A DNA stretch of 60,432 nucleotides, taken from positions 136,895 to 197,326 of the forward strand of contig NZ_QCXQ01000003.1 in the NCBI RefSeq assembly GCF_003124125.1. Reading direction: 5' to 3'. The stretch is from Levilactobacillus bambusae (GTDB taxonomy: Bacteria > Bacillota > Bacilli > Lactobacillales > Lactobacillaceae). Position 1 is the first letter of the stretch; every line of letters begins with the position of its first letter. The position numbers were made by a program, and so were the translations under genes. This document shows positions 6,094 through 60,257 of the stretch, one piece after another. The notes below the pieces were generated by a model that was given only the letters and a program-made list of their open reading frames with translations, was not told the origin of the DNA and made no database searches.

Positions 6094-6291
6094 CAGACGT
6101 ATTCAATTGAACAGATTCAGGGAATCCACATTCCCCATTCATCGGGCACGCCACATCCGGTGGTGAAACCTTGTGCCCCGTCTATCAAAATTCGCCTAGC
6201 CAGTAGGACTGGACATTCCTGTTACCAAGAATGCGCGAAATCTCGACTCATCGCATGAGACTAATATACGCTCATGCGATTCAATTTTCAA
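6094..6291. other. Gene-free stretch rich in small inverted repeats
   Basis: No reading frame is convincing. Several hairpins are visible: GGGAAT/ATTCCC near 6120-6135, GGGCAC/GTGCCC near 6146-6181, CCAGT/ACTGG near 6200-6212, and a perfect 10-bp pair ATCGCATGAG (6250-6259) / CTCATGCGAT (6271-6280). On the minus strand these would form the 3' UTR of the gene ending at 6292. Confidence 0.4.
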
Positions 6292-56490: not shown

Positions 56491-58026
56491 ATGACACAGA
56501 AAGTTTACGATTCCTACTTTTTTAATGAGGCCGCCTTTAACACACACGATGAGGCGTACATACCTTTGGAGCCCGCTAACGTAGCGCCGCAACCTTTAAA
56601 TATTCCGCCCCTATTGCAGCCAGATAAATCGACTGACACGGATACTTACTACACCGTTGAAGCCCAGGAAGGTGAAACCCAGTTTCTCCCCGGTGCTAAA
56701 ACGAAGACATGGGGTTACAATGCTCCATACCTGGGACAAACCATTGTCTTTGAAAACGGTAAAAATGTCCACATTGACCTTAAAAATAGCGTTCCTGAAT
56801 TGACCACCTTCCACTGGCACGGTCTGAACGTCTCCGGTCCCATTATCGATGGCGGCTGCCACGCTCCCGTGTACCCCGGCGAAACCTCGCACATTGATTT
56901 TAAGGTGGATCAGCCTGCAGCCACATTATGGCTGCACGCTCACCCTTGCCCAGCCACAGCCGAACAGGTTTGGAAGGGATTAGCCGGTATGGTTCTGGTT
57001 AAGGATGACGTGGAAGCTAAGCTGCCGTTTCCACGCAACTACGGGGTTGACGACATTCCCGTAATCTTGCAGGACCGGAAGTTCCACGAAAATAACCAGC
57101 TGGATTACCGGGCCGACTATGATCCTGATGGTGCCCAGGGCCCAACCGCAGTGATTAACGGGACCATTAACCCCTACTTTGACGTGACCACCCAGCGAGT
57201 TCGGTTACGCCTATTGGATGGCGCAAACCGGCGTGAGTGGCGGCTCCACTTGACTGATGACCTGCCGTTTGCCCAAATCGCAACGGACGGGGGTATCCTG
57301 CCAAAACCCGTTTACCTGAATCGGCTCATGATGACCGCCGCAGAACGGGCCGAAATCATCATTGATTTTAGCGACTACAAGGAAGGCGACACCGTGACCC
57401 TATACTCCGATGACGCTCCCCTCATTAACTTCCGAATCCACTCGTTTGAACCAGAGGACCGGAAGCTGCCCGACCACTTAGTCGATATTCCAAACCCTGA
57501 TGTGACCCCTGGAACCCACGTTCACCAAGCGGTAATGTCCGGAATGGACGAAGAAGTTGAACTGAACGGGAAGAAGTTTGACATGCAGCGAATCGATGAT
57601 AAGCAACAGGTGGGCAACGTCGAATACTGGGACGTGACGAACACGAACGAAATGGACGGCGGGATGCTGCACCCTTACCACATGCACGGAACACTATTTA
57701 CCGTCGTTTCCCGGAACGGTCACGAACCTAACCCCAACGAATTCGGCCTCAAAGACACGATTGCCGTCAATCCTGGTGAAACGGTACGGTTAAAGGTCCA
57801 ATTCCAAATGACGGGGGTCTACATGTACCACTGCCACATTATTGAACATGAAGACGGTGGGATGATGGCCCAAATTGAGGCTTACGACCCGAACCACCCC
57901 CAAACGTATAAACTGATGGACATGGATACCCTAATGAACGCATTTGCTAAGGAACGCCACGAAAACGTTCAAGACGTGTGGTTGCCCGGCATGGATTCCT
58001 ACAAAAAAATGGGAATGAAAATGTAA
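56491..58026 (+). CDS. Multicopper oxidase (laccase/CumA/SufI type)
   Basis: The 511-residue protein has all four copper motifs: HWHG (108-111), HAHP (149-152), HPYHMHG (about 391-397) and HCHIIEHEDGGMM (447-459; Cys448 and Met458 give the type 1 site). It has no signal peptide, so it is cytoplasmic. Multicopper oxidases of lactobacilli can oxidise phenols and, reportedly, biogenic amines; the physiological role may be copper tolerance. AAAGGAG precedes the ATG. The gene is monocistronic; the stop is followed 10 bp later by the M-box promoter. Confidence 0.95.
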   Translation: MTQKVYDSYFFNEAAFNTHDEAYIPLEPANVAPQPLNIPPLLQPDKSTDTDTYYTVEAQEGETQFLPGAKTKTWGYNAPYLGQTIVFENGKNVHIDLKNSVPELTTFHWHGLNVSGPIIDGGCHAPVYPGETSHIDFKVDQPAATLWLHAHPCPATAEQVWKGLAGMVLVKDDVEAKLPFPRNYGVDDIPVILQDRKFHENNQLDYRADYDPDGAQGPTAVINGTINPYFDVTTQRVRLRLLDGANRREWRLHLTDDLPFAQIATDGGILPKPVYLNRLMMTAAERAEIIIDFSDYKEGDTVTLYSDDAPLINFRIHSFEPEDRKLPDHLVDIPNPDVTPGTHVHQAVMSGMDEEVELNGKKFDMQRIDDKQQVGNVEYWDVTNTNEMDGGMLHPYHMHGTLFTVVSRNGHEPNPNEFGLKDTIAVNPGETVRLKVQFQMTGVYMYHCHIIEHEDGGMMAQIEAYDPNHPQTYKLMDMDTLMNAFAKERHENVQDVWLPGMDSYKKMGMKM

Positions 58027-58035
58027 GCAGGCGGG

Positions 58036-58064
58036 TTGAAAATAGTAACCGATCCCGTTATAAT
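58036..58064 (+). promoter_or_regulatory. Promoter of the M-box transcript
   Basis: TTGAAA (58036-58041) and TATAAT (58059-58064) are 17 bp apart. It lies 10 bp past the multicopper oxidase stop, so the M-box RNA is independently transcribed (start near 58071). Confidence 0.8.
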
Positions 58065-58084
58065 ACAGGTAAGGTAAATAAAGA

Positions 58085-58247
58085 GAAGCTGTTAGGTGAG
58101 GCTCCTATACGGAAAATGCTACTACTCAGAAACGTCGAGAAACGCCAATGAGTCAGCAGTTTATGTCAAAGCAAGGCATAAACTAACGTAGCTGTTACAA
58201 TTGCTTGTAACTACGCCGTATAGTGCTAAAACTCAACGATTGGCTAA
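58085..58247 (+). promoter_or_regulatory. M-box (ykoK) Mg2+ riboswitch aptamer
   Basis: The sequence follows the M-box consensus closely: GTTAGGTGAGGCTCCTATAC (58091-58110), GCTACTACTCAGAAACGTCG, AACGCCAATGAGTCAGCAG, and GCCGTATAGTGCTAAAACTC near the 3' end. Mg2+ binding compacts the three long helices and stabilises the closing stem, turning expression off. The closing stem's right side (58237-58247) is shared with an alternative hairpin leading to the terminator at 58262-58296. M-boxes normally control Mg2+ transporters such as mgtE, corA or mgtA; none follows here. Confidence 0.9.
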
Positions 58248-58296
58248 AAGTTCTTTTTTGGAGTGCACTTAGCCAATCGGTTAAGCGCACTTTTTG
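58237..58296 (+). terminator. M-box expression platform: antiterminator and terminator
   Basis: CGATTGGCTAA (58237-58247) pairs perfectly with TTAGCCAATCG (58269-58279). The competing terminator pairs AGTGCACTTA (58262-58271) with TAAGCGCACT (58282-58291), one mismatch, then TTTTG. High Mg2+ would sequester the 5' strand in the aptamer and allow the terminator to form. Confidence 0.85.
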
Positions 58297-58947
58297 TTTA
58301 CCAAACTAACCAAAGGTGGTGATGAACAATGACAATGTCAATAATCGATTTAGACCCCGGAGCGACTCCTAACGAGCGGCAGGGAAAGCGTAGCCAGTGT
58401 TCATCACTCGTTGCGCAGCGAGGCTTGATTCCATAGCTAGGCTTTCCCTTGCTCATCGTTTCTGCTTGAAACGGTGGTATGACAATCTGAACGTTAGCGC
58501 CGACTTTCAAGATTAGGCTGCAATTGATTTTGCTATCAATTTGAAGCAGCAGACTGAGTTTAACGGTCACAAAAGTCCGGTTCTAACACCAGAAAAAGCT
58601 TGAGCAATGGGATTAAGTCTCAGTTCACCAGAATGGCAAAGATGCATTGACGTGCGAGTCATGGTGCGCTTCACATCGTAGGGAACTGCGTTGGGAGCCT
58701 AATCTTCATTACTGACGTACCCGGAAATTAGGGTGCCTGGTGGTTCAACGATCTTCATATCACAGTCACGGGAATTCAGTAACGAACCGAAACGGTCTAA
58801 GGCTGATGGGAATCACCCGAACCCGAATCCGTTTGACACTAAGTTCTCACCCAAAACTTACTCATTATAATGCTTGGGAGGTAAGTGATCTCCTAATCAT
58901 GCAAGTAAAAGCCGTGAAACTGATTACTATCAGCTTCACGGCTTTTT
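58297..58947 (+). ncRNA. Long ORF-poor structured RNA downstream of the M-box
   Basis: About 650 nt between the M-box terminator and the terminator at 58908-58947. No long ORF fits either strand. A short frame with a good ribosome binding site (AAAGGTGG) begins at 58329 and stops at 58436 (35 codons), and a 16-codon frame begins at 58322. Hairpins seen: AGGGAAAGC.TAGC (58381-58394) with GCTA.GCTTTCCCT (58436-58449); CTCG/CGAG inside it; CGTTTC/GAAACG (58457-58473); CTGCAATTGAT / ATCAATT..GCAG (58518-58549). The short frames lie within or across hairpins. It does not resemble RNase P RNA, tmRNA, SRP RNA or a group II intron. ROOL or GOLLD are possible by size. Confidence 0.5.
58908..58947. terminator. 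Terminator of the M-box transcript and of the symporter gene
   Basis: AAAAGCCGTGAA (58908-58919) pairs with TTCACGGCTTTT (58936-58947), with an inner CTGA/TCAG stem. A T run follows on both strands. Confidence 0.92.
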
Positions 58948-58949
58948 AA

Positions 58950-60257
58950 TTAACTATTTTCAACGGCGTGGTCAGCCGCATTATCACCTAAGTACTTCCG
59001 GACAAACGCTTCATTTTTTTCAGCGTCGTATTCATTTTCTGATTTCCCAATAATCACGGTTGCCAGCGAGTTTCCAATTACATTCACACAGGTCCGCCCC
59101 ATGTCAATCACCCGATCAATTCCCGCAATGAACGTCATTCCCGCAATCGGAATCCCAACGGTTGGAATCGTCGCCAGCAGCACCACAAATGAGGCACTGG
59201 GAACCCCCGCCATTCCCTTCGACGTAATCATGAGAACGACTAACAGCGTAATCTGCTGGCCCAGGCTCAGATTAATGTGGTAGGCCTGGGCTAGGAACAG
59301 CGCCGCAATGGACTGATAAATGGCCGAACCATCAAGGTTAAACGTATATCCGGTCGGAATCACAAAGGACACAATGCTGCGGGAAACCCCGTAGTTTTCC
59401 ATCTTATCCATCATTTTAGGGAGGGCCGCTTCTGAACTAGCAGTCGAAAAGGCCAATACGGCTTCATCCTTAATTACCCGCATTAACTCCCAGAACCGAA
59501 CGTGGAAAAAGTAGCCGGCTAGACTCATAAAGATGGCTACAAAGACCGCCATCGTGGCATAAACCAGTAAAATAAAGTAGCCTAGTGGAATTAAGGAACT
59601 TAGCCCCATCTGAGCAATCGTATTCCCAATGAGGGCACATACCCCCAGGGGAGCCAAATGCATAATCCAGTTCGTGATCTTAAACATGACCTCTGAAACC
59701 GCCTGGAGAAAATCAGTAATAATTTTGCCCCGTTCGCCAATGGCCGCAGTCCCAAGACCAAAGAACACGGAGAACAGGATCACCGGCATCATATCGCCGG
59801 CTGATAATGATTTAAAAATATTAGTTGGAATAATCCCAATAATGGTGCCCCATAAGCCAGTATGGTTAGCTGCTTTAGCCGAAGACAAATACTGACTAAT
59901 ATTTGAACTGTGCAGGGAATGAATATCAACAAACGTTCCTGGGTGAAAAATGTTTCCCACGACTAGCCCCAGTGCAAGTGCAATGGTTGTCATGACTTCA
60001 AAGTAGATGATGGCCTTTCCACCTACTCGGCCCAGTTTCTTAATGTCCCCCATGTTTGCAATCCCAACGGTTAAACAAGAAACCACAATGGGTAAGACAA
60101 TCATTTGGATCAAGTTAATAAACATGGTTCCAATACTTTCCATTGCGGTAATTGCCATTTTATTCTGGTAAAAGACAACCCCCAAAAGAACCCCTAACCC
60201 TAATCCAATCCAGATTTGCCATCCTAACGATAACCGAAAACGATGGTATTTCTTCAT
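58950..60257 (-). CDS. Dicarboxylate/amino acid:cation symporter (DAACS, GltP/DctA-like)
   Basis: The 435-residue protein has the DAACS fold of eight helices and two hairpins: AFSTASSEAALP (first re-entrant loop), GYTFNLDGSAIYQ (NMDGT-like motif) and TSKGMAGVPSASFVVL. Such carriers import glutamate, aspartate, serine or C4-dicarboxylates with Na+ or H+. Substrate cannot be fixed by sequence. GGATTGGTGAG precedes the ATG. It is single and convergent to the M-box RNA. Confidence 0.93.
   Translation of the reverse strand: MKKYHRFRLSLGWQIWIGLGLGVLLGVVFYQNKMAITAMESIGTMFINLIQMIVLPIVVSCLTVGIANMGDIKKLGRVGGKAIIYFEVMTTIALALGLVVGNIFHPGTFVDIHSLHSSNISQYLSSAKAANHTGLWGTIIGIIPTNIFKSLSAGDMMPVILFSVFFGLGTAAIGERGKIITDFLQAVSEVMFKITNWIMHLAPLGVCALIGNTIAQMGLSSLIPLGYFILLVYATMAVFVAIFMSLAGYFFHVRFWELMRVIKDEAVLAFSTASSEAALPKMMDKMENYGVSRSIVSFVIPTGYTFNLDGSAIYQSIAALFLAQAYHINLSLGQQITLLVVLMITSKGMAGVPSASFVVLLATIPTVGIPIAGMTFIAGIDRVIDMGRTCVNVIGNSLATVIIGKSENEYDAEKNEAFVRKYLGDNAADHAVENS

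Follow-up and report, generated by a model that had tools for sequence, protein, structure and literature searches.

The M-box (ykoK; Rfam RF00380) is an aptamer coupled to an OFF-type terminator switch, and control of a Mg2+ transport gene is its usual, not its defining, property. The enteric mgtL and corL leaders contain a small ORF with acidic and proline codons and a stem that sequesters the Shine-Dalgarno (SD) sequence, and their RNA has two states that exclude each other (PMC11552253). An M-box in Mycobacterium controls the upstream ORF Rv1805A, which has a conserved proline and of which an M-box-free homologue exists (PMC12810186), Rli55 of Listeria is a non-coding RNA controlled by a B12 riboswitch (PMC8079631), and OLE RNA is linked to Mg2+ (PMC10898510).

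Here we describe an M-box unit found in a window of 60,432 nucleotides (the whole stretch of DNA analysed) from a Levilactobacillus genome of 1.97 Mb; all features of the unit lie on the + strand. It carries a structured RNA and a small ORF, and both are real conserved features. We moderately favour the reading that this is a Mg2+-repressed unit which makes the structured RNA and one small ORF and which derives from the leader of an mgtA-type pump gene. No earlier description of such a unit was found in open-licence PMC papers.

The unit begins with a promoter at 58036-58064 (-35 TTGAAA, 17 nt, -10 TATAAT) that has 11 of 12 consensus matches; since shuffled sequences average 1.7 promoter-like sites, this match alone is no proof. 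The M-box aptamer follows at 58081-58251, covers positions 1-169 of the 169 in RF00380 and scores 138.2 bits against a gathering cut-off of 44; no other Rfam family exceeds its cut-off in 58000-59000. The 3′ strand of its P1 helix (58237-58247) is perfectly complementary to the 5′ portion of the terminator stem (58269-58279), which gives an antiterminator over 58237-58279. The riboswitch terminator itself occupies 58263-58297, with a stem at 58263-58290 (inner stem 58268-58285) and a U run. From its sequence, this arrangement is predicted to be the usual OFF switch of M-boxes. The final intrinsic terminator, recognised by sequence and fold, lies at 58907-58947 and is followed by a convergent SDF symporter gene (58950-60257; PF00375). 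A sequence-only reading of this DNA had pointed out the consensus promoter, the complete M-box, the terminator/antiterminator and the strong terminator before a convergent symporter, all of which we recover. The presence of the M-box implies Mg2+ control of the unit: by homology to other M-boxes, plentiful Mg2+ would lead to termination and Mg2+ shortage to a full RNA of about 870 nt.

About 620 nt separate the riboswitch terminator from the final terminator. A Pfam scan of five of the larger frames of 58298-58949 gave no meaningful match (the best, a RINGv fragment at E 0.073, is below the cut-off), and five ATPase proteins taken from M-box loci of relatives gave a best E of only 0.24 in tblastn against 58251-58955. 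Both searches bear out the earlier statement that no transporter follows, and a decayed or missed transporter, which had been named beforehand as counter-evidence, left no remnant in either of them. The description of this stretch as one with no credible gene stands for a transporter and falls for the small ORF at 58329-58436, which is conserved and probably coding. The structured RNA and the very short peptide frame (58329), proposed there as options behind the M-box, both proved to be conserved in relatives. A further suggestion, made from the size range, was membership of the ROOL or GOLLD RNAs; identity with these or with OLE was dropped, because the Rfam models gave no match in the window at 58000-59000 with E up to 10, nor in the homologous locus L054 at 1900-2800 with E up to 5. 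A mobile element was dropped as well after blastn against phage and plasmid collections returned no match. Elsewhere in the window, RF02840 (Enterococcus sRNA 68 / Lacto-3 RNA) matches 6121-6255 on the - strand.

The region 58300-58950 folds better than its shuffles, with z of -6.4 including the terminator (20 shuffles) and -3.5 without it (40 shuffles). Across eight homologues z ranges from -0.67 to -7.06, and two Levilactobacillus copies fold barely better than shuffles (L045, z -0.67; L043, z -1.9). Folding energy is a weaker witness than the covariation found in the domain that we call D3.

The small ORF of the window would encode a peptide of 35 aa, MTMSIIDLDPGATPNERQGKRSQCSSLVAQRGLIP (58329-58436, with a second in-frame ATG at 58335), and is preceded by the SD sequence GGTGGTGAT at 58315-58323. 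A short ORF that carries [DE]-P-G-[AS] close to its beginning is found in 77 of 77 loci (33 from Levilactobacillus, the window, 19 from g14, 13 from g20, 7 from g23, 2 from g55 and 1 each from g59 and g49, the g numbers being our codes for genera), the search having itself included this motif. From the nearest ATG onwards, the homologous ORFs run for 26-33 codons, compared to 35 from 58329 in the window. Among 48 non-redundant loci, the Asp/Glu of the motif is residue 7 or 8, the Asp and Pro codons differ only at the third base, the Ala/Ser codon differs only at the first base, and of the 96 alternative frames (two per locus) 92 are closed. Neither GGA nor the CG of the codon after it changes in any of these 48 loci; accordingly, an RNA constraint also acts on the ORF. 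Conservation is poor in the C-terminal half of the peptide, where the RNA is engaged in pairings. The window peptide has no Pfam match.

We found three pairings around the ORF, each compared with permuted partners in tests that ignore relatedness. In helix a-a′ (58317-58409), the region of the SD and the start codon (58317-58332) pairs with 58394-58409, in the 3′ half of the ORF. For the 48 of 77 loci kept after de-replication, the mean cognate duplex energy is -16.6 kcal/mol compared to -12.7 (sd 0.38) for permuted partners (0 of 5000 permutations). At least half of the partners from other genera pair equally well in 10 of the 48 loci (L189, L193, L196, of which a′ was mis-cut, L198, L199, L201, L202, L207, L211 and L226). 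Judged by these modelled duplexes, closure of the SD by a-a′ is supported as strong on average, not in every locus.

Helix b-b′ (58382-58448) pairs GGGAAAGC at 58382-58389 in the ORF with GGCTTTCCC at 58440-58448, that is GGGAAA inside the ORF with TTTCCC behind it (-22.3 versus -17.0 permuted, 0/5000). An alternative helix b′-d (58428-58614) joins 58428-58449 with 58590-58614, the d strand being the first strand of D3, and competes with b-b′; its energies are -17.8 versus -12.5 (sd 0.63) permuted, 0/5000 in 33 loci. These two tests, together with a repeat for a-a′ in which the cognate pairing again beat all 5000 permutations, were run on 36 of 40 loci (without L196, L200, L203 and L226), of which 33 remained after de-replication. 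The b′-d helix is weaker than -9 kcal/mol in 5 of the 33 (L035, L038, L045, L107 and L122), and the strict form of the b motif is absent from some M-box-free loci (L191, L196 and L198). Throughout the pairing tests, the mean for other-genus partners is also weaker than the cognate mean. Among the control pairings, b-d (2364/5000) and a-d (3516/5000) are flat and b′-e is weakly positive (77/5000). The d-e pairing, tested with windows that did not fully cover D3 helix 1, is not significant (934/5000); helix 1 is supported by both alignments used for D3 pair counts (23 and 40 sequences). In local folds a′ sits inside the b-b′ hairpin and is largely paired there, so SD closure competes with b-b′. 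The cognate tests support all three pairings, and we infer that they exchange in the cell.

D3 (58586-58726), defined by pair counts and by the covariance models R1 and R2, has five helices, a UUGACG loop in 58644-58655 and a GNRA-type hairpin at 58678-58689. In the alignment A3 of 23 sequences 93.2% of cells are paired, 17 of 27 pairs vary in both partners compared to 7.3 in shuffles (0/500), and pairing falls to 36-49% when the partners are slid. The alignment of 40 sequences gives 24 of 27 covarying pairs versus 18.7, with 1 of 500 shuffles as high, and leans towards the model to which it was fitted. Of the 26 pairs for which the window has a letter on each side, 21 form there. The loops are invariant, and D3 has no match in Rfam.

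Model R1, built from A3 without any M-box sequence and applied to 397 Lactobacillaceae genomes with E up to 0.1, matches 76 genomes from 7 of 40 genera: 24 in g1, 21 in g14, 15 in g20, 12 in g23, 2 in g55 and 1 each in g59 and g49, with several g23 matches and the g49 match being weak (E 0.001-0.04). Model R2, whose training copies represent all seven genera, scores better on those copies by construction; it matches 34 genomes out of 201 from the family, which likewise come from 7 of 40 genera, and additionally finds two untrained g23 genomes that have no R1 match (G057, E 4.5e-15; G132, E 1.6e-12). In a sample of the order R2 matches 16 of 395 genomes, all of them Lactobacillaceae and none from other families.

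These properties of D3 bear on the possibility that the microprotein is the only product, its expression being set by the M-box, a-a′ and b-b′, with D3 as a stabilising 3′ UTR. The ORF in all 77 loci and the coding signature at the DPG codons argue for it, and PMC12810186 describes an M-box peptide with a conserved proline and an M-box-free homologue in mycobacteria. We nonetheless consider a microprotein-only unit doubtful: D3 covaries strongly and has invariant loops, and in its C-terminal half the peptide shows little conservation, the RNA there being taken by pairings.

Downstream of D3 lies a 3′ motif, GGCTGATGGGAATCACCC (58801-58818; core TGATGGGAATCA), which may resemble the 3′ end of 16S rRNA. 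Its possible structures are a GNRA-type hairpin and a helix with the SD, the latter being predicted by the consensus fold. The core is present in 34 of 34 Levilactobacillus and 13 of 13 g20 loci and in none of 30 other loci (19 g14, 7 g23, 2 g55, 1 g59 and 1 g49), which places it outside the shared core of the family. The long-range pairing of SD and 3′ motif is nearly invariant and so beyond the reach of covariation; with the motif core absent from the loci of five genera, this pairing was rejected as part of the shared core.

A first blastn against 99 relatives returned the window's own copy and one short match, as if the RNA were unique to its genome; a permissive blastn over 36 genomes of the genus overturned this and gave short collinear blocks genus-wide. 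The M-box is found in 34 of 36 Levilactobacillus genomes by RF00380 scan, and the RNA in the same 34. For 33 of these 34 the M-box preceding the RNA is the sole one found, the exception being L. brevis G016, which has a second. Neither M-box nor RNA was found in G030 (99% complete; blastn, RF00380 and R1 searches) or in G006 (72% complete; blastn and RF00380 scan only). An M-box core string lies 741-792 nt upstream of the 3′ motif in 33 of 33 fetched Levilactobacillus places (713 nt in the window), and terminators, judged by eye, follow the 3′ motif in the fetched loci of the genus. The window copy is an outlier, with 42-48% identity to other copies over the RNA and with order and motifs retained.

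The order of M-box, small ORF and D3 is retained in Levilactobacillus and two more genera. For g14 and g20, both positions were shown in 35 of the 36 R1-positive genomes, and in all 35 the M-box is followed by D3 at a distance of 287-379 nt, with both on one strand. In a collection of 84,980 species a gapped pattern found 33 stretches, 28 from Levilactobacillus, 3 from Secundilactobacillus and 2 from unassigned Lactobacillus records. Two matches were dropped: one in G177 (L090), which has only the SD/start string in common with small hydrophobic ORFs, and L089 from g55, which gave no Rfam match and by eye seems to be coding. The g55 copy with conserved order came from the R1 search. By eye, L090 (G177:C1, about 2121900-2122700) holds three copies of the SD/start string before hydrophobic ORFs that resemble Fst-type toxins.

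The RNA is also found without a riboswitch. No M-box match was obtained in any sampled genome of g23, g49, g55 and g59 with strict filters, nor did Rfam detect one in the 11 fetched loci of these genera. These 11 loci retain the ORF, D3 and the neighbourhood, the symporter being convergent in all 11. With four genera that have the RNA and no M-box match, Mg2+ control by an M-box is not essential to the RNA. A multicopper oxidase gene lies upstream of the unit in the window and in 16 of 19 g14, 7 of 7 g23, 2 of 2 g55 and 1 of 1 g59 loci, compared to 0 of 32 other Levilactobacillus, 0 of 13 g20 and 0 of 1 g49 loci. rRNA genes are nearby in 11 of the 20 loci scanned.

A convergent symporter is present in 66 of the 73 loci whose sequence reaches far enough, and the remaining 7 have no symporter match and still have the RNA. 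One might therefore think of an antisense role, in which the low-Mg2+ transcript enters the convergent symporter gene and lowers its expression; a survey counts 27 antisense-acting and 828 sense-acting ykoK/M-box riboswitches (PMC9943018). Such a role is very unlikely, as the terminator stops the unit ahead of the symporter, the RNA persists in the 7 loci with no symporter match, and antisense action would require neither the ORF nor D3.

No same-direction gene was found behind the unit. Regulation could still act in cis via readthrough of the final terminator or via a second short ORF, and attenuators typically have pairings that exclude one another. In 23 of the 77 loci, the stretch from the small ORF to the first T run contains a further ORF of at least 12 codons with an SD-like string; these ORFs differ in start and sequence among genera, and 54 loci have none. 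With the convergent symporter coming next in 66 of 73 loci, we rate persisting cis regulation as quite unlikely.

For the origin of the unit, 15 M-box loci from genera without an R1 match were inspected. Nine M-box-linked proteins, including the product of the gene behind the second L. brevis M-box, were compared with NCBIfam, a scan that left out L233, L236, L237, L240, L241 and L242. MgtA is above the cut-off in L228, L229, L230 and L238. The short proteins of L232, L234 and L239 hit P-type ATPase models with scores under the cut-off (best E 2.8e-16, 6e-4 and 6e-6, respectively), the L235 protein has no family match in NCBIfam, and that of L231 matches Pfam E1-E2_ATPase over 343 aa. The genera in which MgtA is seen behind an M-box have no R1 match.

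Some of these loci have features of their own. Open frames of 220-343 aa lie behind the M-boxes of L232 (1561-2406), L234 (732-1391), L235 (1497-2432), L239 (731-1543) and L231 (586-1614); four of the five proteins match P-type ATPase models in part and L235 none. By eye, a gene like that of a pyruvate dehydrogenase E1 subunit comes next in L232, L234 and L239. The second L. brevis M-box (L131, 1501-3163) precedes an ABC-type permease (PF00528), and the M-boxes of L236 and L237, from two other genera, precede proteins that look alike by eye. An unusual Mg2+-regulated transporter is possible in these three loci.

Six of the M-box loci (L232, L234, L235, L238, L239 and L241) have an ORF of 27-32 aa after the M-box whose SD is closed by its own 3′ part. 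In five of the six this closure is at or below 1 in 500 letter shuffles, and in L232 it is at 4 in 500. The peptides of L232 (SKPGATDKGDQQRKLDV) and L239 (ADPG) resemble the DPG peptides by eye. Within Levilactobacillus 0 of 36 genomes have a protein above the TIGR01524 cut-off (best 449 bits versus 610.75), and other P-type ATPases match this model below the cut-off. What putatively links the unit to an mgtA leader is the likeness of the small ORF and the shared SD pairing, not a D3 match. The unit is probably the control region of a lost pump gene that survives as its own product, and a leader that lost its ATPase gene would be the simplest history.

The same history could have left a decaying mgtA-leader relic with no present function, as elsewhere in the family M-boxes stand before MgtA or shortened ATPases and the gene could simply be lost. 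We regard a functionless relic as extremely unlikely given the conservation in seven genera, the covarying helices, the cognate alternative pairings and the intact ORF; moreover, tblastn found no ATPase remnant. Overall, the observation made by the sequence-only reading is confirmed and extended, and its interpretation is partly supported. It overlooked the presence of the small ORF in every locus examined, the RNA without an M-box hit in four genera and the resemblance to a pump leader.

How might a Mg2+-repressed unit of this origin work? Once the riboswitch lets the full RNA through, the ribosome-binding site of the ORF would be closed by a-a′ and freed as a′ also lies within the b-b′ hairpin. 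Next, b′ would take one of two partners, b in the ORF or d, the first strand of D3, so that the occupancy of the ORF by ribosomes would decide how D3 folds. At low Mg2+, ribosomes could be slowed or ejected by the acidic and proline residues with which the peptide begins ([DE]PG), as is reported for enteric MgtL. A fold gated by ribosomes is a supported hypothesis. Finally, the RNA, the peptide or both may act in trans on Mg2+ or ribosome physiology, which we infer because no same-direction gene was found behind the unit. Tentatively, and with somewhat less than even confidence, we propose a new family of stand-alone, trans-acting Mg2+-starvation RNAs, the fold of which is gated by ribosomes on their own DPG micro-ORF, born from an M-box/uORF leader that lost its MgtA gene and riboswitch-free in four genera.

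If true, a Mg2+ riboswitch would control an RNA and a microprotein instead of a pump, and a regulatory leader would have outlived its gene and turned into a regulator itself. Food bacteria would offer in this unit a small RNA device, open to testing, in which three Mg2+ sensors may be combined, namely an aptamer, a nascent peptide and an RNA fold. It also raises the question of how Mg2+ shortage is handled in Levilactobacillus, which has no MgtA above the NCBIfam cut-off.

Compared with the usual M-box, this one has no Mg2+ transport gene, as frame or remnant, in 58300-58950. As in mgtL-mgtA and corL-corA, the unit has an acidic/proline small ORF (77 of 77 loci), a paired uORF SD (cognate test of a-a′) and two mutually exclusive RNA states; it differs from them in the M-box in front, in the missing pump gene and in a regulated part that is apparently an RNA domain. 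No Mg2+ transporter lies downstream, the symporter being convergent in 66 of 73 loci. The unit would work like these leaders by analogy, a likeness in working that does not imply kinship. It shares with Rv1805A an M-box over a conserved proline-bearing small ORF and an M-box-free homologue; the mycobacterial case has a translational/Rho mechanism and downstream pe20 genes, whereas here we find an intrinsic terminator and a structured RNA. As with Rli55, the making of a longer regulatory RNA would depend on a riboswitch, but Rli55 has another ligand and an ANTAR element, and the available part of PMC8079631 does not mention a small ORF. The ornate RNAs ROOL, GOLLD and OLE are in a similar size range (PMC12286853), whereas the RNA of this unit has no Rfam match and bears an ORF at its 5′ end. 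Each part is thus known separately, and what is new is their combination on a pump-less unit with a family-specific RNA domain.
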